Assembly (NCBI RefSeq): GCF_000215085.1
Contig: NC_015589.1
Span: 1,116,001 to 1,180,000, forward strand
DNA: 64,000 nucleotides
Direction: 5' to 3'
Origin: Desulforamulus ruminis DSM 2154
GTDB taxonomy: Bacteria > Bacillota > Desulfotomaculia > Desulfotomaculales > Desulfotomaculaceae
Shown: in pieces, positions 6,821 to 16,560 of the stretch
How positions within the stretch are numbered: the stretch's first letter is position 1
Layout: the number at the start of each line of letters is the position of its first letter
Made by a program: the position numbers and the translations under genes
The notes under the pieces: generated by a model
The model's database searches: none
The model's input: only the letters and a program-made list of their open reading frames with translations
What the model was told of the DNA's origin: nothing

Positions 6821-7038
6821 ACCTGATTGTCATTTTAATAGCCTTCCTCTTTGGCGCCCTGAGCGCCGTTTTTTGTGTCCGTTTGGGCCTGACCTGGGCG
6901 CGAATCCAGCGAGGGGAAGAACCAAAACACCTGCCTATTCTACCGGAGACGAAACCACCCCCCAAAGTAGAAGAACAGGAACCGAAACCGGATAAAACCC
7001 TGCAACACTGGTTCGTGGGGGGTGAAGAGAAACCATGA
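6814..7038 (+). CDS. Small single-span membrane protein
   Basis: A 74-residue protein with one hydrophobic segment (about residues 3-25) and a Pro/Glu-rich tail. ATG 6814 overlaps the terL end, and its stop overlaps the portal ATG, so it is embedded in the head operon. The AAAGGAG upstream supports translation. No family is recognised. It could be a head-completion or host-membrane factor. Confidence 0.65.
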   Translation: MVDLIVILIAFLFGALSAVFCVRLGLTWARIQRGEEPKHLPILPETKPPPKVEEQEPKPDKTLQHWFVGGEEKP

Positions 7039-8819
7039 GCATGATGGAAAAGGTTTTATCCTTCCTGCCGGGCAAGGAGGCGGCAGACTCGCCGGAGCCG
7101 GTGGCCGAGAAGATTTTGGAGCAGTTGCAGTCCTCCGTCTCCTGGAAGCGGGCTAGGGGATATTACGATGACTGGCCGGAATATGAACGATTCAAGCGTG
7201 GGGACCAGTGGCCGAAGCCAACCCAGGACACTGCCGTTTATCCCAGACCGGTGATCAACATCTTTGAGTCTATCATCGACCAGAAGGTATCCGCGGTGCT
7301 TCAGGAGGAGCCGGAGATTACCTTTCTGCCCCGGGAAGGAGCGCCGGCCAACGACCCTCTGACGGCCACGGACCCCACCCGGGCGGATGCGGAAGCGGCT
7401 CAGATGTTCAGCAAAGTAGCCAAGTACACCAGCGAGGAAACTAATAACGACGACCTGAACGAGCAGATAGCCGAAACTGCGGCCCTGCTGGGTACGGGCA
7501 TATCTTATTGGTATTGGGATCCCGGCAAGCGAGGCGGGAACCCGGAGCGCATGACCGCTTTTGAAGGGGATATTGCCGGGGATGAGATTGACCCGGCAGA
7601 CATCCATGTGGGCAACCCGAGGGAGCCGGATATTCAGAAACAGCCTTGGATAATCATCACTGCCCGGACCCCGCTCCAGGAATTCAGAGAGTTCTACAGG
7701 AAACACGCTGACCGGCTGGGTGTGGACGTGGCCAGTATCCGCGGCAGCAAGGAGCAGCAGCGGGACCAGCTTTACGACAGTGAGCGAAATGAAATCGACT
7801 CCACGGACTACGTGGACGAAATCCGCCGCTTCCGCAAAGTGATGAATCCGGAAACCGGGCATACCGAGGTTTGGTATGAAGTGGTGGCGGACAGCAAACT
7901 GGTCCGGGTGGAAAGGCCCCTCTTCCAGTACAGTGACCGCTATCCCCTGGCGGTGTTCCGCTGGAAGGATGTCCGGAACTGCTTTTTCGGGGAAGGGGAG
8001 GCCAGGAATATCATTGAGGCCCAGAAGTCGGTGAACCGGCTGTTGGGCCTGTCCATTTGGTCCGGGTATTTGACGGCCTGGCCCAAACTGTTGGCCGATG
8101 AGCAGCAGGTGGACCCCACTAGCATCACCAATCAGCCGGGGCAACTGGTCCGCAAACGCCCGGGAAACTGGCAGGGGAAGGCCCTGGAATACCTCCAGGC
8201 TCCTACCATCCCGGGGTACGTGCAGCAGCTTTTTTCCGAACTGCCGGAAATGGTGAAGACTGAGGCGGGCGTGCATGAGGCCATGGTGGGCCAGGCGCCC
8301 AGCGGGGAGCTAAACGCCCAGGCCATTATGATGCTGCAGAAGGCCGCGGGAATCCGGATATCGAAGATTAGCCGGAACTTTCGCCGCTATCTGAAGGAAG
8401 TGGCCCAGGTCTGGGAAGCCTTCTGGAAGGAGTTTTATTCCGAGCAGCGGTTGATCCGCATCACCGACGGCCAGGGGGGCCGGGAATACCTCTGGTTCCG
8501 CGGTACGGATTGGGTGGATTTTGACTTCGACGTGATGGTGAACAGCGTGCCCAGTACCCCCTACAGCGAAGCGGCCATGGTGGCAGAGCTGAAGGAACAT
8601 TTGAATGGGGGACGCATTGACTTCACCACCTACCTGGAAAACCTGCCGCCGAACTACCTGCCCCAGAAAGAGAAGATCATCGAACAGGTGAAGCAGGCCC
8701 AGGCTCAGCAGCAACAGCAGATCATCTCCCAACTACCGCCGGATCAGCAGGAGATGTTCATGCAGTTGTCGCCGGAGGAGCAGCAGGAAATGCTGAATCA
8801 AGTACAGGGAGCACCGTAG
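7035..8819 (+). CDS. Portal protein (P22-like)
   Basis: Dodecameric ring at the head vertex through which DNA passes. The 594-residue length fits the larger podovirus-type portals. Typical stretches are the early DDWPEYERFKRGDQWPKP and PRPVINIFESIIDQKV, then DVRNCFFGEGEARNII and the AIMMLQKAAGIRISKISRN region that forms the long helix. The C-terminus is Gln-rich (about 555-590), as often seen in portal barrels. It follows the terminase genes and precedes the scaffold gene. A terminator-like hairpin overlaps its stop. Confidence 0.9.
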   Translation: MSMMEKVLSFLPGKEAADSPEPVAEKILEQLQSSVSWKRARGYYDDWPEYERFKRGDQWPKPTQDTAVYPRPVINIFESIIDQKVSAVLQEEPEITFLPREGAPANDPLTATDPTRADAEAAQMFSKVAKYTSEETNNDDLNEQIAETAALLGTGISYWYWDPGKRGGNPERMTAFEGDIAGDEIDPADIHVGNPREPDIQKQPWIIITARTPLQEFREFYRKHADRLGVDVASIRGSKEQQRDQLYDSERNEIDSTDYVDEIRRFRKVMNPETGHTEVWYEVVADSKLVRVERPLFQYSDRYPLAVFRWKDVRNCFFGEGEARNIIEAQKSVNRLLGLSIWSGYLTAWPKLLADEQQVDPTSITNQPGQLVRKRPGNWQGKALEYLQAPTIPGYVQQLFSELPEMVKTEAGVHEAMVGQAPSGELNAQAIMMLQKAAGIRISKISRNFRRYLKEVAQVWEAFWKEFYSEQRLIRITDGQGGREYLWFRGTDWVDFDFDVMVNSVPSTPYSEAAMVAELKEHLNGGRIDFTTYLENLPPNYLPQKEKIIEQVKQAQAQQQQQIISQLPPDQQEMFMQLSPEEQQEMLNQVQGAP

Positions 8820-8835
8820 CAGGTGCTTTCTTTTT
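8810..8835 (+). terminator. Terminator-like hairpin over the portal stop codon
   Basis: AGCACC at 8810-8815 pairs with GGTGCT at 8822-8827, followed by TTCTTTTT. The stem includes the last portal codons, with the stop in the loop. Ribosomes finishing the portal gene should melt it, so termination may depend on translation. Confidence 0.55.
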
Positions 8836-8894
8836 ACCTAAAACTTACGGGCGTTAATCAGCCAGCGCCGCCGGCTGGTAAGGAGGAATAAACC

Positions 8895-9749
8895 ATGGAT
8901 GAATTTAGCCAAGTAGAAACCAGCGAAAGCATGGAAACGGGCGTAGAAACCCCTGGGGCCGCCGACCAGGGATATGTCGAGCAAGAAGAGACCCAAAACC
9001 CCCAAAACCCCCTTGAAACGGGCGAAGAGGATGCCGCCGCCGGGCAAGAGGAGGGGGAAACGCAGTCACCCGACCCCAAGGTGGAAACCGCCTTTGCCAA
9101 ACGGTTGGCTGCAGAGCGTGAAAAAATCCAACAGGAAGCCTATCAACGGGCTCAGCAGCAGCTGGCCCAGGAGTTGGGACCCTTGCTGAAGATGGCCCAA
9201 ACCGAGGCAGCCCGACACGGCATGACTCCGGTGCAATGGGCCCAGGCGGTAGAAGCCAGCCGGGAGCAGCAGTTCCGGAATCAGTTGGAACAGTATGCCG
9301 AAGCCCAGGGATTGAACCCCCGGGAAGTGGAACAGTTTGTGGAGAATCATCCCGCCATTATCCAGGCCAGACAACAGCAGCATTACCTTTCCCAGCAGCA
9401 AAAACAAATTGAATCCCAGCAGCGATTTAACCAGGAGGCGGCGGAGTTTATGGAACTCTTCCCGGATGCCAAGGCGGATCAAGTTCCGCCAGAGGTTTGG
9501 CAGATGCGGGAACAGCGGGGCATTCCCCTGGCCGCCGCCTACGCCATTGTGACCCACCGGACCGCCAAGGAACAGGCCAAAGCCCAGGGAGAGCAGGCGG
9601 CTATCGCAGCTATGCGCCAGCGGCAGCAGGCCGGTACCGGACCGGCCAAAGGGGGCGGGGCTACGGTGACTTCCGCTTGGGATTTGCCCAAGGATCAATT
9701 TGAAAAGCTCTTGGCCAAGGCGAAGAGCGGAGAACAAGTAACTTTTTAG
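8895..9749 (+). CDS. Capsid scaffold protein
   Basis: Predicted internal scaffold for head assembly, placed between portal and major capsid genes. The first 60 residues are acidic and low complexity (Glu/Gln/Thr). The middle is a long Gln/Ala/Glu-rich helix expected to form a coiled coil. The C-terminus (WDLPKDQFEKLLAKAKSGEQ) has the basic, amphipathic character that binds capsid protein in other scaffolds. ATG 8895 follows AAGGAGG. The call rests on position and composition, since scaffolds are poorly conserved in sequence. Confidence 0.8.
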   Translation: MDEFSQVETSESMETGVETPGAADQGYVEQEETQNPQNPLETGEEDAAAGQEEGETQSPDPKVETAFAKRLAAEREKIQQEAYQRAQQQLAQELGPLLKMAQTEAARHGMTPVQWAQAVEASREQQFRNQLEQYAEAQGLNPREVEQFVENHPAIIQARQQQHYLSQQQKQIESQQRFNQEAAEFMELFPDAKADQVPPEVWQMREQRGIPLAAAYAIVTHRTAKEQAKAQGEQAAIAAMRQRQQAGTGPAKGGGATVTSAWDLPKDQFEKLLAKAKSGEQVTF

Positions 9750-9760
9750 GAGTGATATAA

Positions 9761-10699
9761 ATGGCCAACGAAAACATTCAAACCTATGGCGGCCTAACCG
9801 CCCAGCAGAAAACCTTTTACGACCGGACCCTTTTAGAACGCCTGCTTCCGAAGCTGGTTTGGGGCAAATGGGCTCAAAAGAAATCCATGCCCAAACGGGA
9901 AGGGGATACGGTGAACTTCCGACGGTTCAACAGCCTGCCGGCAGCAACTACTCCCTTGACCGAAGGGGTTACCCCGGACGGTAGCAGCTTAGACATTACC
10001 GCCGTGACGGCTACCACCCAGCAGTATGGGGATTATGTGACGGTCAGTGATAAGCTGGATTTCCAGGGCATTGACCCGGTGATCACCGAAACCACCGAGC
10101 TATTAGGCGAACAGGGCGGGTTAACCATGGATACCTTAGCCCGAAATGTACTGACCGCGGGGACCAGTGTGCAGTACGCAAACGGGAAAACTGCCAGAAA
10201 CCAGCTAACCCCCGCCGATAAGGTGACAGGTCTGGAAATTCGGAAAGCAGTGCGCACCCTGCGGCGGAATAAAGTTCCCACCATTGCCAACGGCAAGTAT
10301 ATTGGTTTGATTACCGCTGATACGGAATTTGATTTGATGGACGATCCCATGTGGAAGGACGTGTCCACCTATTCCGCCAAAGAGCAGATTTTCTCCGGGG
10401 AGATCGGCAGCCTGTACGGCGTGAAATTTGTTCGTACGGACAACCCCAGGGTATTTCCCGCTGCCGGTGCAGAAGGAGCGGACGTCCACTGCGTTACCAT
10501 CTTCGGGAAACACTGGTATGGAGATGTGGACGTGAACGGCAGCAAAAAGCCGGAAACCATTGTGAAGTCTCACGGATCTTCCGGTACGGCAGACCCCTTG
10601 AACCAGCGGGCTACGGTGGGCTGGAAAGTCATGGCTTACACCTGCAAGATTCTCAATGAACTGTGCGGCGTGCGTATCGAGTGCGGTGCAACTCAGTAA
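9761..10699 (+). CDS. Major capsid protein (N4-gp56 type)
   Basis: Main shell protein. The N-terminus (QTYGGLTAQQKTFYDRTLLE), the KSMPKREGDTVNFRRF stretch and the closing TVGWKVMAYTCKILNE are characteristic of the N4-gp56 capsid family, an HK97-fold group found mostly with short-tailed or N4-like phages. The 312 residues match the family. A short gap with an SD (AGGAGTG) separates it from the scaffold. An 8-base-pair hairpin follows the stop. Confidence 0.92.
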   Translation: MANENIQTYGGLTAQQKTFYDRTLLERLLPKLVWGKWAQKKSMPKREGDTVNFRRFNSLPAATTPLTEGVTPDGSSLDITAVTATTQQYGDYVTVSDKLDFQGIDPVITETTELLGEQGGLTMDTLARNVLTAGTSVQYANGKTARNQLTPADKVTGLEIRKAVRTLRRNKVPTIANGKYIGLITADTEFDLMDDPMWKDVSTYSAKEQIFSGEIGSLYGVKFVRTDNPRVFPAAGAEGADVHCVTIFGKHWYGDVDVNGSKKPETIVKSHGSSGTADPLNQRATVGWKVMAYTCKILNELCGVRIECGATQ

Positions 10700-10702
10700 T
10701 TA

Positions 10703-10725
10703 GGGAGGGCGATAACAGCCCTCCC
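10703..10725 (+). promoter_or_regulatory. Stable hairpin after the capsid gene
   Basis: GGGAGGGC at 10703-10710 pairs perfectly with GCCCTCCC at 10718-10725 over a seven-base loop. No T-run follows, so it is more likely an mRNA-stabilising or processing structure for the abundant capsid message than a terminator. Confidence 0.5.
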
Positions 10726-10748
10726 AATCCATTTGGAGGAGGATACTA

Positions 10749-11084
10749 ATGACTAATCAGAAACAATCCAAGGTAACTACCCATGCGGAAATTTATGGTG
10801 GCACAGCTCCGACCGAAACCCCGGAAGAAAAGCAGAAACAGGCAAACAGCACCATTACCGACTCCGCTCTGGACCAAATGGCCAATGAAACCGGCAAGCA
10901 ACTGGCGGCCCAGGAGAAGGTTCGGATTATGGTCCCTGGAGACCCGCTGAATCCCAAGGACAACAGTGTCCCGGTCTGTATCAATGGCTATGTGTATCAG
11001 GTAAAACGAGGTGTCCGGGTAGAAGTCCCTGAGGCAGTAGCCCAGATCCTGGAGGATGCTGGATACCTGGGAGGTAGAAGGTAG
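10749..11084 (+). CDS. Head-region protein of unknown function
   Basis: A 111-residue protein. The N-terminal half is polar and rich in Thr, Glu and Gln. The C-terminal half (RIMVPGDPLNPKDNSVPVCI then VKRGVRVEVPEAVAQILEDAG) resembles a short conserved module found after capsid genes in related prophages. It follows GGAGGAGG and ends three bases before the adaptor gene. It could be a head decoration or connector accessory; this is not proven. Confidence 0.7.
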   Translation: MTNQKQSKVTTHAEIYGGTAPTETPEEKQKQANSTITDSALDQMANETGKQLAAQEKVRIMVPGDPLNPKDNSVPVCINGYVYQVKRGVRVEVPEAVAQILEDAGYLGGRR

Positions 11085-11087
11085 ATC

Positions 11088-11702
11088 ATGAACTGGGGAC
11101 AACTGAAAGCCCAGGTGTTTAAGCTGATGGACGAATACTCCAGCCGGGGAGTGGTTCAGTCCAAAGCCAAGACCCAGGACGTCACTTTTAAAGCCCAGGA
11201 CTTTGCTAGGGACACCATCCTGGAGTTGGCCAAGGTTGTGAAGAATCCCGGCGTTTTCACGGTTTCCCTATCGGATGAGAATTCTCCATTGCAGTACAAC
11301 CTGCCGGAGGATTGGCTGGAACTGAATTATGCCGGGTACACCCAAGGGCAACGGTTGGAGCAGGTTTTTCCGACGGGACTATTCCGCATTACGCCGGACC
11401 GCAGGTTAATTCTGGCGCCCAACCGGCACCCCTCGGAGATTCGTTTCTATTACGTGCGCCGACCGGTAGATCTGATATTCACCGGGGATGATGCCGCGGA
11501 CGAAGCGCAGACCATCGATTTACCGGAGGATGCAGCGCGAATTGCGGCTTACAATGTGGCCGGGCAGGTGCTGCTCAGTGAGGGGGAACTGACCAAAGGA
11601 ACCATGCTAATTAACCAGTATGAAGCCAAGAAAGAAAATCTGGTGATCCATGACGGCAAGCTGCCCGTTGAGATCACGGACGCTCTGGGGTGGTGGGCTT
11701 AA
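11088..11702 (+). CDS. Head-tail adaptor protein
   Basis: Likely connector that sits below the portal ring. The N-terminal helices (MNWGQLKAQVFKLMDE and the FKAQDFARDTILELAK stretch), the WLELNYAGYTQG segment and RPVDLIFTGDDAADEAQTID resemble the adaptor (gp4/gp6-like) family of short-tailed phages. The 204 residues are normal. The stop overlaps the next ATG (TAATG at 11700-11704), showing tight coupling to the hub gene. Confidence 0.75.
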   Translation: MNWGQLKAQVFKLMDEYSSRGVVQSKAKTQDVTFKAQDFARDTILELAKVVKNPGVFTVSLSDENSPLQYNLPEDWLELNYAGYTQGQRLEQVFPTGLFRITPDRRLILAPNRHPSEIRFYYVRRPVDLIFTGDDAADEAQTIDLPEDAARIAAYNVAGQVLLSEGELTKGTMLINQYEAKKENLVIHDGKLPVEITDALGWWA

Positions 11703-12004
11703 TGGTACGTTACAATGTTCCGGCGGAGCCGCCGAAACCGGCTCCTTTTGCTTTTCCGGATGGCTTCGCTGGTGGTATGAACATATCAGTCACCGCCGAC
11801 CAAATAGCCACAAACCAAAGCCCCGATATGCTCAATATGAACTATGATAACGGCGGGGTCCCGGGGAAGCGGTACGGGTTTACCCGGGAAACAGGGCTAG
11901 GAAGCCAACCCATCCGGGGACTGTATGAATTTCGGAAGGTGGGCCAGGAAAAGCCCATCTTACTGGTGGTTCAAGACGGCAAACTTTGGGAGATTGACGG
12001 TTAA
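11702..12004 (+). CDS. N-terminal fragment of a tail hub / stopper protein
   Basis: A 100-residue protein that reads like the first part of a larger beta-propeller hub: a proline-rich start, then GGMNISVTADQIATNQSPDM, the NMNYDNGGVPGKRYG turn and a first propeller strand pair ending LLVVQDGKLWEIDG. In whole relatives this point continues as propeller blades. Here a stop follows at once, and the missing continuation appears at about 12,855 inside the 657-residue ORF. The start is ATG 11702, overlapping the adaptor stop. Split rather than decayed is favoured because both parts keep ribosome sites and intact frames. Confidence 0.7.
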   Translation: MVRYNVPAEPPKPAPFAFPDGFAGGMNISVTADQIATNQSPDMLNMNYDNGGVPGKRYGFTRETGLGSQPIRGLYEFRKVGQEKPILLVVQDGKLWEIDG

Positions 12005-12019
12005 GGAGGGATTGAAACC

Positions 12020-12406
12020 ATGGCGAAGATGTCCAACTATCTTGAAAACGCACTGATTAATTGCACGCTTCGGGGAATCCCTTACACCCCACCCAGCGTT
12101 ATCTATGCTGCCCTATTTATTTCCGACCCCACGGACGCAGATACCGGGACGGAGGTTTCCGGAGGAGGCTACACCCGAAAACCGGTGACCTTTGACACGC
12201 CGGACAACGGGGCTGCGGTCAACAATGCGGACCTGGCTTTTCCGGTAGCTACCGGAAATTGGGGGACGGTGACGCACATTGGCCTTTATGATGCTGAAAC
12301 AGACGGCAATCTATTATTTTACGGGGATCTGAATACACCTCGAGCAATTAACATTGACAACCAGCTAATTATCCTCGAAGGGGGACTAATGGTCACGCTG
12401 GATTAA
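12020..12406 (+). CDS. Phage tail fibre-like protein (inserted within the hub gene)
   Basis: A 128-residue protein of the small phage tail-fibre family, recognised by LRGIPYTPPSVIYAALFISD, DADTGTEVSGGGYTRKPVTF, and FPVATGNWGTVTHIGLYD with a closing LYYG-like LFYGDL and final VTLD. Such proteins are expected to fold as a beta domain on the virion surface. ATG 12020 follows TTAAGGAGGG that overlaps the stop of the hub fragment. It lies between the two halves of the hub gene, an unusual position, and was probably inserted together with the repeat domain that follows. Confidence 0.8.
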   Translation: MAKMSNYLENALINCTLRGIPYTPPSVIYAALFISDPTDADTGTEVSGGGYTRKPVTFDTPDNGAAVNNADLAFPVATGNWGTVTHIGLYDAETDGNLLFYGDLNTPRAINIDNQLIILEGGLMVTLD

Positions 12407-12429
12407 CCCTCTGGGAAGGAGGGAAACTT

Positions 12430-14403
12430 TTGTATTTCTTCGGTTATGACTTTATTGACTACGGTGATTTCACTTATCGAAATATTAATCAGGCTTCCTT
12501 TACAGAGACCAGCTTGACGGGTATGGCAGAGCTACAGGTGGACGAAGAGATCCGGGTCCGCTCAGCAGTTCTGTCCGGGCACGCCGGGATTACTGTGGAT
12601 ACTCTACTGAAAATGTTTGCCCGAGTGGAAATGGCCAGTCAAGCGGAGGTGGTGGTCAATGGGGTTACAGCTTTTATAGGAATGGCGAGTTTGGAAACAT
12701 CGTCTTCTATACTGATAGAAACTGTGAAAGCCTATATAGGCAGGTCCGTTATGAAAAGCAGGGCCAAGGTGGATTGTGCAACCGTATTGGCATTTATGGG
12801 GCATTCGGTTATGCCTTCTACCGCGAAGCTTTCTTGCCGCTCCGCCAAGGCCCTGTTAACCGGCCTGGCTGACCGGCAAACGGCGTTTTTCACCATGGGC
12901 AACCGATGCTATATGATTAATGGCCAGGATTTTATTTGGACCGATGGGGCGAATTCGGGCCATGTTCGGGATATTGCCTATGTCCCTACGCTGACATTGG
13001 CGGGCAGCGCTGATGCACCCGGCGCTATTTATGAAACTTTGAATTATCTCTCCGACTCCTGGATAGATAGTTACAGCCCCGACGGGGAGGCGGTCACCTT
13101 CCCGGTGAGTTTTGCCCCTTCTGACGACGTATTGGTGACGGCGGAGGAGGATACTCCTGAAGGCGTGATCACCTATACGGAAGGGGTGGGGCTCACTGTG
13201 GACCGGACTGTCACCCATGCAAAACCCTTTGCCACGGTGACTTTCCCCGTGGCTCCGGCCAAGGGAACGGATACCCTGAGGATCCGCTGCACCAAAACCG
13301 GCATGATGGATCCGGGTCATATTTTGAACTGCACCCTGCCGGTGCTTTACGGAGGGATGGCGGACACCCGAGTCCATTTGGCCGGCCATCCGGAAGAGCC
13401 CAATATTCGCTACAGCAGCGGCCTGGAGGATCCTACCTATTGGCCGGAGGACGCCTGGGAACCCATTGGAGCGGACAACGAAGCCATTACGGGTTTTGGC
13501 AAGGTGGCAGACGCGTTGTTCACCTTCAAGGAGCGCAGCCGCTTTTATACCTGGATCGAGGGGCCGGACGATCAGGGGAAGATTACCTTCCCTACGCTGC
13601 CGGTCAATGATGAGTATGGCTGCATTGCGCCCCGGTCGGTTTGGCCGGCTCAGGACGGGTTGCTGGCCTTGGCCCGGGAAGGGGTGACCTGGAGCCAGCC
13701 CAACACGGTCCGGGGGCAGTGGAATACTTGGATGGTCTCGAAGAACATTAACGGCAAGAACGGCATTGGTATGGGAATTCTGGATCATTCACTGGAGGAA
13801 TTGAAACAGGCCCATGCCATTGTGTATGAGGATAAATACCTCTTGCACATTGGGGATCGGGTGTATGTGCTGGATTTACGCTATTCCAGCCTGCCAAATA
13901 TCGCCTGCTGGTATCCCTATGACGGGATACCGGGAAGAGCCGCCCAGTTTATGGAGCGGGGGGATGAACTGCTTTTGGGAGACCGATTTACCGGAGTAAT
14001 TTACCGATCTACCAAACGCCATTTGGACGATGACCAGCCCATTCCGGCTTACTGGACATCTCCTTTACTCTTTGTGGGGGGAAGGGATTGGATTAAGGAA
14101 TTTGAGCGGCTAAATCTGACCTTTGGCGGACAACCGGAAGGGAATCATGTTCTGACGGTGATGACCGACCAGGGATGGGAAGAGATTGGTTTGATTCTGG
14201 AGGCTCAGGGGGTCTTTGATTATGGCAGCATTTCCTACGATACATTTAGCTTTGGAACCTTACCGTACCCTTCCGCCCAAAGTGAAAAAATCGGCTACAA
14301 AGGGGAATACCTGCAGTGGCAGGTTGGAAATGCCCATCCGGATCAGGGCATTTCCCTGTTAGCCCAATCGTTGCAGTACAGTTTACGAAAAAAAGTGAAG
14401 TAG
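12430..14403 (+). CDS. Tail hub C-terminal part with an N-terminal repeat domain
   Basis: A 657-residue protein in two parts. Residues about 29-148 hold six imperfect 20-residue repeats with pattern A-x-(V/L)-x(6-8)-A-x-(I/M)-G-x-S-x-M. From about 149 (LADRQTAFFTMGNRCYMING) the sequence is the missing continuation of the hub propeller started at 11,702, with repeated blade motifs such as HIGDRVYVLD and GDRFTGVIYRSTKR. TTG 12430 follows AAGGAGGG. The C-terminal domain probably closes the portal and binds fibres. The fusion of a repeat domain to a hub lacking its own N-terminus is the odd point; the split-gene reading is inference. Confidence 0.75.
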   Translation: MYFFGYDFIDYGDFTYRNINQASFTETSLTGMAELQVDEEIRVRSAVLSGHAGITVDTLLKMFARVEMASQAEVVVNGVTAFIGMASLETSSSILIETVKAYIGRSVMKSRAKVDCATVLAFMGHSVMPSTAKLSCRSAKALLTGLADRQTAFFTMGNRCYMINGQDFIWTDGANSGHVRDIAYVPTLTLAGSADAPGAIYETLNYLSDSWIDSYSPDGEAVTFPVSFAPSDDVLVTAEEDTPEGVITYTEGVGLTVDRTVTHAKPFATVTFPVAPAKGTDTLRIRCTKTGMMDPGHILNCTLPVLYGGMADTRVHLAGHPEEPNIRYSSGLEDPTYWPEDAWEPIGADNEAITGFGKVADALFTFKERSRFYTWIEGPDDQGKITFPTLPVNDEYGCIAPRSVWPAQDGLLALAREGVTWSQPNTVRGQWNTWMVSKNINGKNGIGMGILDHSLEELKQAHAIVYEDKYLLHIGDRVYVLDLRYSSLPNIACWYPYDGIPGRAAQFMERGDELLLGDRFTGVIYRSTKRHLDDDQPIPAYWTSPLLFVGGRDWIKEFERLNLTFGGQPEGNHVLTVMTDQGWEEIGLILEAQGVFDYGSISYDTFSFGTLPYPSAQSEKIGYKGEYLQWQVGNAHPDQGISLLAQSLQYSLRKKVK

Positions 14404-14412
14404 GTGGTTTTT

Positions 14413-15693
14413 ATGGCGTTAAGCAGTATGCCAGACTTTACCTTCAAGCATATGGAACAGCCGGATAAGTTGGTGGATTCGCCGGCGGCTAATAAGGAGA
14501 AGTTTGATAGTCGAGGGAACGAAATCCGGAATTATATTAACAGCAGTTTGGTTCCGGAGATTCTTCAGGCGAAGCAGCAAATACAGCAAATAGATAATAA
14601 AGGTGCGGAGTCTATCCCTATTACAGATACAGGAAACCATTTCACCGCAACCAATGTGGAAGGAGCCCTGGAGGAGCTTTTTACCTCTGTCAGTGATGGG
14701 AAAAACCAGGTCGCTGCCGCCATCACTGACAAAGGGGTGCCCGCGAGTGGCAGCGACACTTTTGGTCAGCTAGCAGGGAAAATTGGAGAGATCAACACCG
14801 GGGTAACCCCTGCAGGAACGGCGGTGGTTGGGGATGTGCTCAGTGGGAAAACGTTCATCAATAGCACCGGCTCCACTTTGACCGGTACTATGCCCAATCG
14901 AGGGGCGGTTTCGATTACGCCCAGTGCGTCGGCACAGACCATCCAGGCAGGATACCACAATGGCAGCGGCCAGGTAGCGGCGGTCACCTTTGACGCTTCA
15001 AAGGTGCTGACCGGGAGCACTATTGCCGGGACGCCAGGCACCATGCCCAACCGGGGGGCAGTAAGCATTACGCCAGGAACGACGAACCAGACGATCCAGG
15101 CCGGATACCATTCTGGTAGCGGTGTTGTACAAGGTAGCCCGAATTTGTTACCGGCAAATATCCGGAATGGAGTTGACATTTTTGGTGTCATTGGTAATTT
15201 AGCCGGAGTAAAACTAAAAAGTATTCAGGTAATACCGGTTAGTAATTTGTTTGGGAGATACCAAACGGCTGCTGTTACAATTCCTACTGCCGTTGATACG
15301 ACAAAAGCATTTATCCTGAATAACGTTATTTCCTCCGAGCGTAGCGCCCCTCTGCATGGTTGTACAGCCTATTTTAGGGATTCCACTGTAATAGAGCTGG
15401 AAAGAGGGAGTATAGAAAATAGCATTTTTTATGGAACAGGTAACATTTATGTGGTTGAATTTTCCGAGGGCGTAACGGTGCAAAGCGGATACTCCACGAC
15501 AAACCCCACAATAACTGCTGTAGACACATCCAAATCTTTTATAATTACGTCAACGTGCGTAAAAGCAGGTAGTAGCCAAGTCAATACGGCGGACATTGAA
15601 TGTAATGCCTATTTTTATAGTCCTACTGAACTGCGTTTTGGTCGTTACAGCGAGCCATGGAAACGCGCGTGGTTTGTTGTTAGCTTTACCTAA
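14413..15693 (+). CDS. Tail fibre / receptor-binding protein
   Basis: A 426-residue virion protein. The N-terminal 70 residues likely anchor to the tail; a helical stretch (EILQAKQQIQQIDNKGAE) follows. Then comes a segment with two copies of TMPNRGAVSITP followed by QTIQAGYH, a repeat widespread in fibres of Firmicutes phages. The C-terminal half has two related beta modules beginning VDTTKAFIL and VDTSKSFII, suggesting an internal duplication of the receptor-facing domain. ATG 14413 sits behind TAGGTGG that overlaps the hub stop. Receptor identity cannot be seen. Confidence 0.8.
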   Translation: MALSSMPDFTFKHMEQPDKLVDSPAANKEKFDSRGNEIRNYINSSLVPEILQAKQQIQQIDNKGAESIPITDTGNHFTATNVEGALEELFTSVSDGKNQVAAAITDKGVPASGSDTFGQLAGKIGEINTGVTPAGTAVVGDVLSGKTFINSTGSTLTGTMPNRGAVSITPSASAQTIQAGYHNGSGQVAAVTFDASKVLTGSTIAGTPGTMPNRGAVSITPGTTNQTIQAGYHSGSGVVQGSPNLLPANIRNGVDIFGVIGNLAGVKLKSIQVIPVSNLFGRYQTAAVTIPTAVDTTKAFILNNVISSERSAPLHGCTAYFRDSTVIELERGSIENSIFYGTGNIYVVEFSEGVTVQSGYSTTNPTITAVDTSKSFIITSTCVKAGSSQVNTADIECNAYFYSPTELRFGRYSEPWKRAWFVVSFT

Positions 15694-15711
15694 TACTCTT
15701 AAAGGAGTTGT

Positions 15712-15876
15712 ATGATTGTGTATATATACGCTCAATTAGATGAACAAAATATTTGTGTTGGATTATCTAGGCTATCCGGTGTTACCGATCTCCCCTATAT
15801 GGTCCTTATAGAGGAATTTAATCCTGATTTACTGGGCAAGCAGTGGGACGGTGAAAAATTTTTAGATTCTGCATAA
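15712..15876 (+). CDS. Small fibre-associated protein (54 residues)
   Basis: A short ORF, MIVYIYAQLDEQNICVG to WDGEKFLDSA. ATG 15712 follows AAAGGAG. Short proteins with a similar YAQLD start and a WDG(E/K)xF end are common directly after tail fibre genes, where they may help fibre folding or attachment. The family is recognised only by this pattern and position. Confidence 0.65.
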   Translation: MIVYIYAQLDEQNICVGLSRLSGVTDLPYMVLIEEFNPDLLGKQWDGEKFLDSA

Positions 15877-15901
15877 AGGAAAATCCTGCACAATGCTGAA
15901 T

Positions 15902-15928
15902 ATACCTCCTAAGTAACGGAGGAGGTAT
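15902..15928 (+). promoter_or_regulatory. Hairpin that masks the ribosome site of the HExxH gene
   Basis: ATACCTCCT at 15902-15910 pairs over nine perfect bases with AGGAGGTAT at 15920-15928. The right arm is the Shine-Dalgarno sequence of the gene whose ATG is at 15934, so the folded RNA should block translation. A readthrough transcript would contain both arms, while one starting between them would not. Confidence 0.75.
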
Positions 15929-15933
15929 GTTTT

Positions 15934-16560
15934 ATGCGGAAGTTTTTATTGGCCATGGTATTGGTGCTGTCCTTTGCGTTGCCTTCCTGGGCGGGACCGG
16001 CGCTGATTATTAATGGAGCGTTGTATCCGAATGCTCAAACCATTGAGCAGGATGGAATGGTTTATGTTCCAGTTCAACCTACCGCTGAAGCAATAGGCTA
16101 CGAGGTTGGTTTTGAAGATGGTGCCGTGAAAATCTGGCAACAACTAAAAGAGCCGCAGATTATCGGGGATAGCCATTTTCAGGAGGTAGTAGGGCAGGCG
16201 ATAGGGTTATTAAGGGAAAATGAACCTGTGAGTTATGTGAATCTTTGCCAGTATGTAGATACTATAGAATTATCTGAACAGCAAGGCAGGGATGGTCACA
16301 ATAACGGTGGTAGGCAAGTGTACCTTACAAGAGAGCTTTATGACTCAGATAGGTTTATTCCTGTCTATGTTGCCGCTACTATAGTGCATGAAACGGTGCA
16401 TGCTATGCAGTTTGGGTGGGGGTTTAACCGCGTAATGACAGAGAATGCTTTAGAGTATGAAGCCTATGGTCACGATATAAACATACTTACGCAATTAAAT
16501 GCACCGCAATGGATGATTGATGGAATTGTTACGAGTCAAAATAAATATAAACCAAACTAA
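15934..16560 (+). CDS. Secreted HExxH metallopeptidase-like protein (accessory gene)
   Basis: A 208-residue exported protein. A signal peptide (MRKFLLAMVLVLSFALPSWA) is followed by a copper-amine-oxidase-like stalk domain (about 23-70; VYVPVQPTAEAIGY), then a helical domain with HETVH at about 152-156 and a downstream ENALEYEAYG that could give the third zinc ligand. This fits a small zincin acting outside the membrane. The lysis amidase at 23,810 carries a related stalk domain. The gene sits alone between fibre and internal-protein genes, has its own terminator and a masked ribosome site, and looks like a moron. The substrate is unknown; a role in the cell envelope or in exclusion of other phages is possible. 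Confidence 0.7.
   Translation: MRKFLLAMVLVLSFALPSWAGPALIINGALYPNAQTIEQDGMVYVPVQPTAEAIGYEVGFEDGAVKIWQQLKEPQIIGDSHFQEVVGQAIGLLRENEPVSYVNLCQYVDTIELSEQQGRDGHNNGGRQVYLTRELYDSDRFIPVYVAATIVHETVHAMQFGWGFNRVMTENALEYEAYGHDINILTQLNAPQWMIDGIVTSQNKYKPN

Follow-up and report, generated by a model that had tools for sequence, protein, structure and literature searches.

The 64,000-nucleotide window analysed here (positions 1,116,001 to 1,180,000 of NC_015589.1, Desulforamulus ruminis DSM 2154) contains a prophage in which the gene for the tail hub is divided in two by a fibre gene and a repeat domain. The first part is open reading frame (ORF) 1 (11702..12004, plus strand), the hub N chain, whose 100 residues end at LWEIDG in a hairpin turn; it is followed on the same strand by a gene for a 128-residue homologue of the fibre protein Gp80 (12020..12406) and by ORF3 (12430..14403), which starts at TTG and encodes 657 residues, a repeat or 'rope' domain (12430..12837) being joined in frame to the remaining hub (hub C part, 12838..14400). 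Judged by homology, ORF1 and the hub C part of ORF3 are one podophage tail hub (nozzle) in two genes, and it is highly probable that the fibre cassette has split the nozzle gene at a hairpin and that the two chains form one hub subunit carrying a Gp80-bound rope.

The evidence for a single hub comes from relatives in which it is uninterrupted. Gp15 of Bacillus phage Page, one continuous chain of 594 residues, matches ORF1 and ORF3 in turn: residues 26-99 of ORF1 align to positions 14645-14869 of the phage record (expectation value, E, 4e-6) and the last ~513 residues of ORF3 to 14912-16363 (E 1e-57). A profile of 610 positions built from 12 intact hubs likewise matches ORF1 at 21-97 (E 5.8e-18) and ORF3 at 104-610 (E 1.6e-100), leaving about six positions between the two matches unaccounted for and extending the homology over nearly the full length of the hub, and PHROG 3287 behaves in the same way, with ORF1 at 13-87 and ORF3 at 160-351. 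An uninterrupted homologue that aligns first to one ORF and then to the other was what the original prediction had asked for, and both Page gp15 and the 12-hub profile provide it; the hub also resumes behind the repeats as foreseen, but from about residue 137-142 of ORF3 rather than from about 149. The same prediction had named, as an outcome that would speak against it, relatives in which the two ORFs are separate throughout the family. Among the loci examined, however, 21 hub ORFs, some of them from near-identical phages, span the profile in one frame from position 21 or earlier to position 604 or later, and further uninterrupted relatives are present in other prophages and contigs. The window hub is not a single uninterrupted chain: it consists of two cistrons with one gene between them. 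At the junction, the intact viral contig L160 reads KLYLIPDNGLQPISLYTGLADQQVSFF, whereas the window has KLWEIDG, the cassette and then KALLTGLADRQTAFF. A hub gene divided by a fibre gene and a repeat domain, as first proposed, is thereby confirmed by the profile together with the Gp80 and period-20 evidence presented below.

To place the break on a structure, the intact relative L242 was modelled with AlphaFold2 (nine-row alignment; mean predicted local distance difference test score, pLDDT, 63.4; predicted template modelling score, pTM, 0.64); this model replaced an earlier, poor one (mean pLDDT 46.7). The break, around which pLDDT is 88-92, falls in the turn that joins strand 91-95 to strand 102-105; these are the third and fourth of four strands in residues 69-105 that would constitute one propeller blade. 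In a Foldseek comparison with the PDB, the 27 best matches of the whole model all come from phage tail complexes, P22 gp10, the T7 nozzle gp12 and tail chains of GP4 and SU10 being among them, and unrelated proteins appear from rank 28. A nozzle-like fold of the intact relative is supported by a model of moderate confidence. In another intact hub, L158 (6001-7875), the single chain is about 35 residues longer at this same hairpin, indicating that the break site tolerates inserts, and the intact hub of L160 (6001-7995) has an in-line insertion, repeat-like and about 75 residues long.

The same break recurs in other phages. In L035, which belongs to the same taxonomic order but a different family, the gene order is that of the window: an adaptor gene, a hub N chain of 167 residues, gp80 and an ORF of 1447 residues in which period-20 repeats lie ahead of the hub C part. 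The profile limits (hub N 10-103; hub C 91-167 and 278-520) place the break where it is in the window. In this region (7850-13096), hub N is longer by about 60 residues, and some 900 residues of the third ORF, with a weak laminin-G-like match among them, precede hub C; the cassette may itself lie within another adhesion domain. Joining the two flanking pieces and searching with tblastn gave no match, and for this reason only a hub split is claimed for L035. Two viral contigs related to L160, L244 and L245, are cut at the same site, with hub N extending to 115-116 and hub C beginning at 105, the hub N part of L244 being cut off by the start of the locus. Here a gene of some 677 residues separates the halves, and gp80 and repeats are both absent; the hub C parts of the two contigs are 70% identical and the genes between only 26%, that of L245 having a polysaccharide deacetylase domain and that of L244 no Pfam match at E 0.01. 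Both are putative fibre genes. In L245, hub C has a strong ribosome site of its own and is separated from the inserted gene by a terminator-like hairpin with a T run (2874-2961). Across the loci examined, which are not a random sample, the hub ORFs comprise 21 uninterrupted, four phages split at the hairpin, five partial matches and one, L246 (1527-3451), broken elsewhere, at profile position 234, by a frame change without an insert; a sequencing error or genuine decay may account for the last. With the L006 and L013 hubs as queries, viral scans returned nothing useful.

A comparable arrangement exists in Dit, the unrelated hub protein of siphophages. In the first cases, L058, L059 and L061, the first ORF matches the Dit profile PHROG 33 at columns 38-217, 33-218 and 41-206 respectively, gp80 follows it, and the repeat-bearing ORF matches the same profile at 221-280, 215-279 and 215-279, the Dit matches of the L059 C part being weak (PHROG 33 E 0.059; Pfam below cut-off). 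L074 is a fourth such case, and its ORF at 6989-7813, read from the translation, appears to hold two tandem Gp80 domains fused in 274 residues. Within one bacterial family, 39 of the 295 genomes searched contain gp80; of the 30 loci examined, 26 have a Dit N-terminal part (Dit-N) of about 183 residues (176-189) directly upstream; a 27th (G598) was added by a later Dit-N search and the remaining three have another gene in that place. Twenty of these 27, together with L058, L059, L061, L074 and L225, make up 25 loci chosen for having Dit-N and gp80, and all 24 that reach far enough contain, on one strand, Dit-N, gp80, 0 to 6 kb of other genes, and repeats fused to the Dit C-terminal part (repeats::Dit-C); given how the loci were picked, this count tests only the presence of Dit-C downstream, and like the other counts it is uncorrected for ancestry. 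The Dit-C model used (ditC2) was built partly from the loci it tested, an earlier four-locus model having already given Dit-C in 18. On a 272-position profile made from seven intact Dits, the N parts of the 24 split Dits give a clear match as far as about 131-145, and 13 of them also a weak one at about 151-192; the C parts run from 192-210 to 257-272. The best repeat period is 20 in 17 of the 24.

The association of gp80 with the split form was also approached from Dit itself. A Dit-N search of 118 genomes of the same bacterial family gave 33 matches and 30 loci, seven of which (L234-L240) could not be classed and were excluded from the comparison. Adjacent gp80 accompanies all 14 split Dits and none of the nine intact Dits (259-280 residues, one ORF) within the locus examined (Fisher p = 1.2e-6, ancestry ignored); the Dit-N profile behind this comparison (A3) was made from split forms and favours them, Dit-C lies within the locus only for L225 among the 14, and ten of the 14 are from genomes also represented among the 25 loci. 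Two of the intact Dits give weak Dit-C matches (L232, 0.00036; L233, 0.021).

The identity of the cassette rests on its fibre gene. The product of the window gp80 scores 155.2 bits against PF23140 (family cut-off 27; E 1.4e-45), making it a member of that family, and is homologous to chain a of PDB 8jou (E 2.5e-10), which is taken here to come from Ralstonia phage GP4. Fibre I of that phage is reportedly described, in the abstract of the work on GP4, as dimers of Gp80 joined by an elongated rope protein. In the window, the short N-terminal stretch of ORF3 is followed by about five 20-residue repeats (~140 residues in all), and 20 is the best repeat period of ORF3 (z = 11.1 against shuffles). 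The ORF that immediately follows gp80 in podophages ct2t2046, C72C1, JC1 and OH also has this period, or its double, as its best, and in myophage-type loci the corresponding ORF combines an N-terminal period-20 stretch with a Mu Gp48-like domain; among these ORFs the period is clear in L011 (6402-7424) and weaker in L033 (679-1479) and L009 (6403-7323), and the fusion would represent a third way of attaching the repeat stretch. In a survey of gp80 loci, the first ORF after gp80 has period 20 in 35 of 84 distinct cases compared with 15 of 502 other ORFs (odds ratio 23), and any of the first three ORFs has it in 38 of the 84; the viral matches to L035 gp80 in this survey are the best 80 of at least 600 stretches, and the survey consequently leans to one kind of podophage. 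Because period 20 recurs after gp80 across podophage, siphophage and myophage-type loci, the ORF3 repeats are best read as the rope of Gp80, to which Gp80 may bind, and the cassette may have a role in host attachment, the 'host-range' function suggested for it at the outset. It is instead possible that the repeat domain is an independent adhesin or a spacer, unrelated to Gp80 and fused to the hub by chance. The L244 and L245 hubs, split without gp80 or repeats, would fit such an origin, as would the 46 of 84 gp80 cases that lack period 20 in all of the first three ORFs. Nevertheless, this is unlikely for two reasons: the period follows gp80 in all three types of locus, and its frequency in the first ORF stands far above background. 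The window repeat domain gave nothing useful against phages by tblastn, nor did the repeats::Dit-C proteins of L061 and L058, and PHROG 31951 matches the window repeats weakly (E 0.45) and the L061 repeats::Dit-C strongly (7.4e-52).

Whether the divided hub still functions can be considered from the genes themselves and from their parallels. All three frames are open, on one strand and tightly spaced, and the intact frames originally predicted at 11702-12004, 12020-12406 and 12430-14403 are borne out. The good ribosome sites predicted with them are present for gp80 and ORF3, each of which has the Shine-Dalgarno sequence AAGGAGGG (12003..12010, overlapping the hub N stop codon, and 12416..12423, both on the plus strand), but not for ORF1, the start of which at 11702 overlaps the stop codon of the adaptor gene (TAATG) and has a weaker site. 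The 100 residues of ORF1 are counted from this ATG; the ORF list gives 104, from an upstream GTG. Two trivial origins of the arrangement were rejected: an assembly artefact, the genome being one contig of 3,969,014 bases and the split recurring elsewhere, and stop-codon readthrough, a complete gene lying between the hub parts. There remains the scenario in which the insertion broke the hub gene in this prophage and the pieces, although expressed, are useless. The prophage is known from a single genome and the searches gave no close relative with an identical split, as would be expected of such an accident. However, decay of the window hub is unlikely, and this scenario is very improbable, given the open frames and the strong ribosome sites at 12020 and 12430, the three other phages (L035, L244 and L245) split at the same hairpin, and the parallel Dits, split by the same gp80-repeat cassette in 24 loci and spread over many genomes of one bacterial family, with low ratios of non-synonymous to synonymous substitution rates (dN/dS) in the few pairs that can be read. 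With dS < 1, the two readable Dit-N pairs have ratios of 0.15 and 0.04, the single gp80 pair 0.04 and the single repeats::Dit-C pair 0.11. Most dS values overall are saturated; among the pairs listed with dS above that limit, the ratio ranges from 0.04 to 0.16. The view that the split hub is a working one is supported accordingly.

It could also be argued that ORF1 is a vestige and that ORF3, which holds about 500 of the ~600 hub profile positions, works alone as the hub, the rope replacing the missing first strands. Against this, the hub profile continues to recognise ORF1, each of the four split nozzles has a hub N part ahead of the cassette, Dit-N is 176-189 residues long in all 26 loci having one upstream of gp80, and the dN/dS of its two readable pairs is low. 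A vestigial ORF1 is accordingly most improbable, slightly more so even than a decayed hub.

The preferred explanation is that of two complementary chains. A bead-on-rope cassette, with Gp80 as the beads and the 20-residue repeats as the rope, would have entered the nozzle gene and left two cistrons, cut at the hairpin of a blade. The first chain would stop after the third strand of the propeller blade, and the second would begin with the rope, continue with the last strand of the same blade and end with the remaining hub, such that the two chains would meet within one blade and probably co-fold into one hub subunit. As the rope would be anchored by fusion to an internal strand, the hub would be rebuilt from two chains, and as the second chain begins with the rope, each subunit would display a rope with its N-terminus free, along which Gp80 would sit. 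The split Dits would follow the same logic within their C-terminal domain. A wider generalization is somewhat favoured: that unrelated hub folds, the podophage nozzle and the siphophage Dit, have repeatedly become two-chain proteins, the hairpin being a landing site for varied fibre cassettes, with strand complementation restoring the fold and a rope or fibre leading out from an internal strand, its other end free.

Several observations weigh against this explanation. Split nozzles with both gp80 and repeats are confined to the window and L035, and L244 and L245 indicate that splitting of the hub does not require that cassette; L246, with its frame change, indicates that hubs are also broken by accident. 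No dN/dS is computable for the window hub, as it has no close split relative. The mean pLDDT of the L242 model is modest and its TM-scores to the tail chains are 0.37-0.55 (query length). For the rope, the best period is not 20 for the ORF behind gp80 in phages such as Venkman and DB2, nor in seven of the 24 split-Dit loci; the 46 gp80 cases noted above lack this period, and none of the PDB searches with repeat proteins yielded a convincing match.

Should the two chains indeed assemble, essential ring-forming hubs can be cut by a fibre gene and still work, in two unrelated families. This would explain the short 'orphan' Dit and hub genes of annotations, point to a function for PHROG 31951 and reveal where swappable fibre genes are kept in phage genomes. 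It would also provide natural split sites for the display of proteins on tail hubs and predict how phages besides GP4 attach a Gp80 fibre to the tail.

Two other genes of the window were noted. Upstream of the hub, a head-to-tail adaptor gene (11088..11702, plus strand) is assigned from PHROG 13046 and an SU10_adaptor-like match of 24.5 bits against a cut-off of 27. Further downstream, amid phage structural genes, 15934-16560 encodes a protein with an apparent signal peptide and a HETVHA motif, with a weak match to the copper amine oxidase N-terminal domain (E 0.0011, below cut-off).

The split hub of the window can be compared with several known systems. With fibre I of Ralstonia phage GP4 (Gp80, PF23140; PDB 8jou) the window shares a homologous Gp80 gene. 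Chain g of that structure (8JOU_g), which may or may not be Gp80, is described as a dimeric fibril that links an adhesin to the GP4 nozzle collar (PMC13243795). The Gp80 of Burkholderia phage JC1 has 64.9% identity with the PDB chain, and there, as in other podophages, gp80 is likewise followed by a period-20 protein; in ct2t2046, however, this protein has a gene of its own, with an uninterrupted hub gene after it, whereas in the window the repeats form one ORF with the second half of a split hub. The order of adaptor and then hub gene is that of the podophage nozzles P22 gp10 and T7 gp12, both among the top matches of the L242 model. Known nozzles are single chains, unlike the two cistrons of the window hub. 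PHROG 31951, of 173 residues and unassigned function, is read here as a rope with the C-terminal part of a split Dit. The open-access literature was searched for split Dits or hubs, and no such report was recognised. A parallel is provided by the evolved Dits of siphophages, in which carbohydrate-binding modules are described as inserts within one Dit chain (PMC7291167, PMC8540738, PMC8878798). Extra binding modules are added to a hub protein in both, but the evolved form keeps one continuous chain, whereas the window hub is cut before the cassette and in the split-Dit loci the Dit chain is cut with another gene between its halves. In-line hub modules are already known; the surprising part is that the split recurs across two unrelated hubs.

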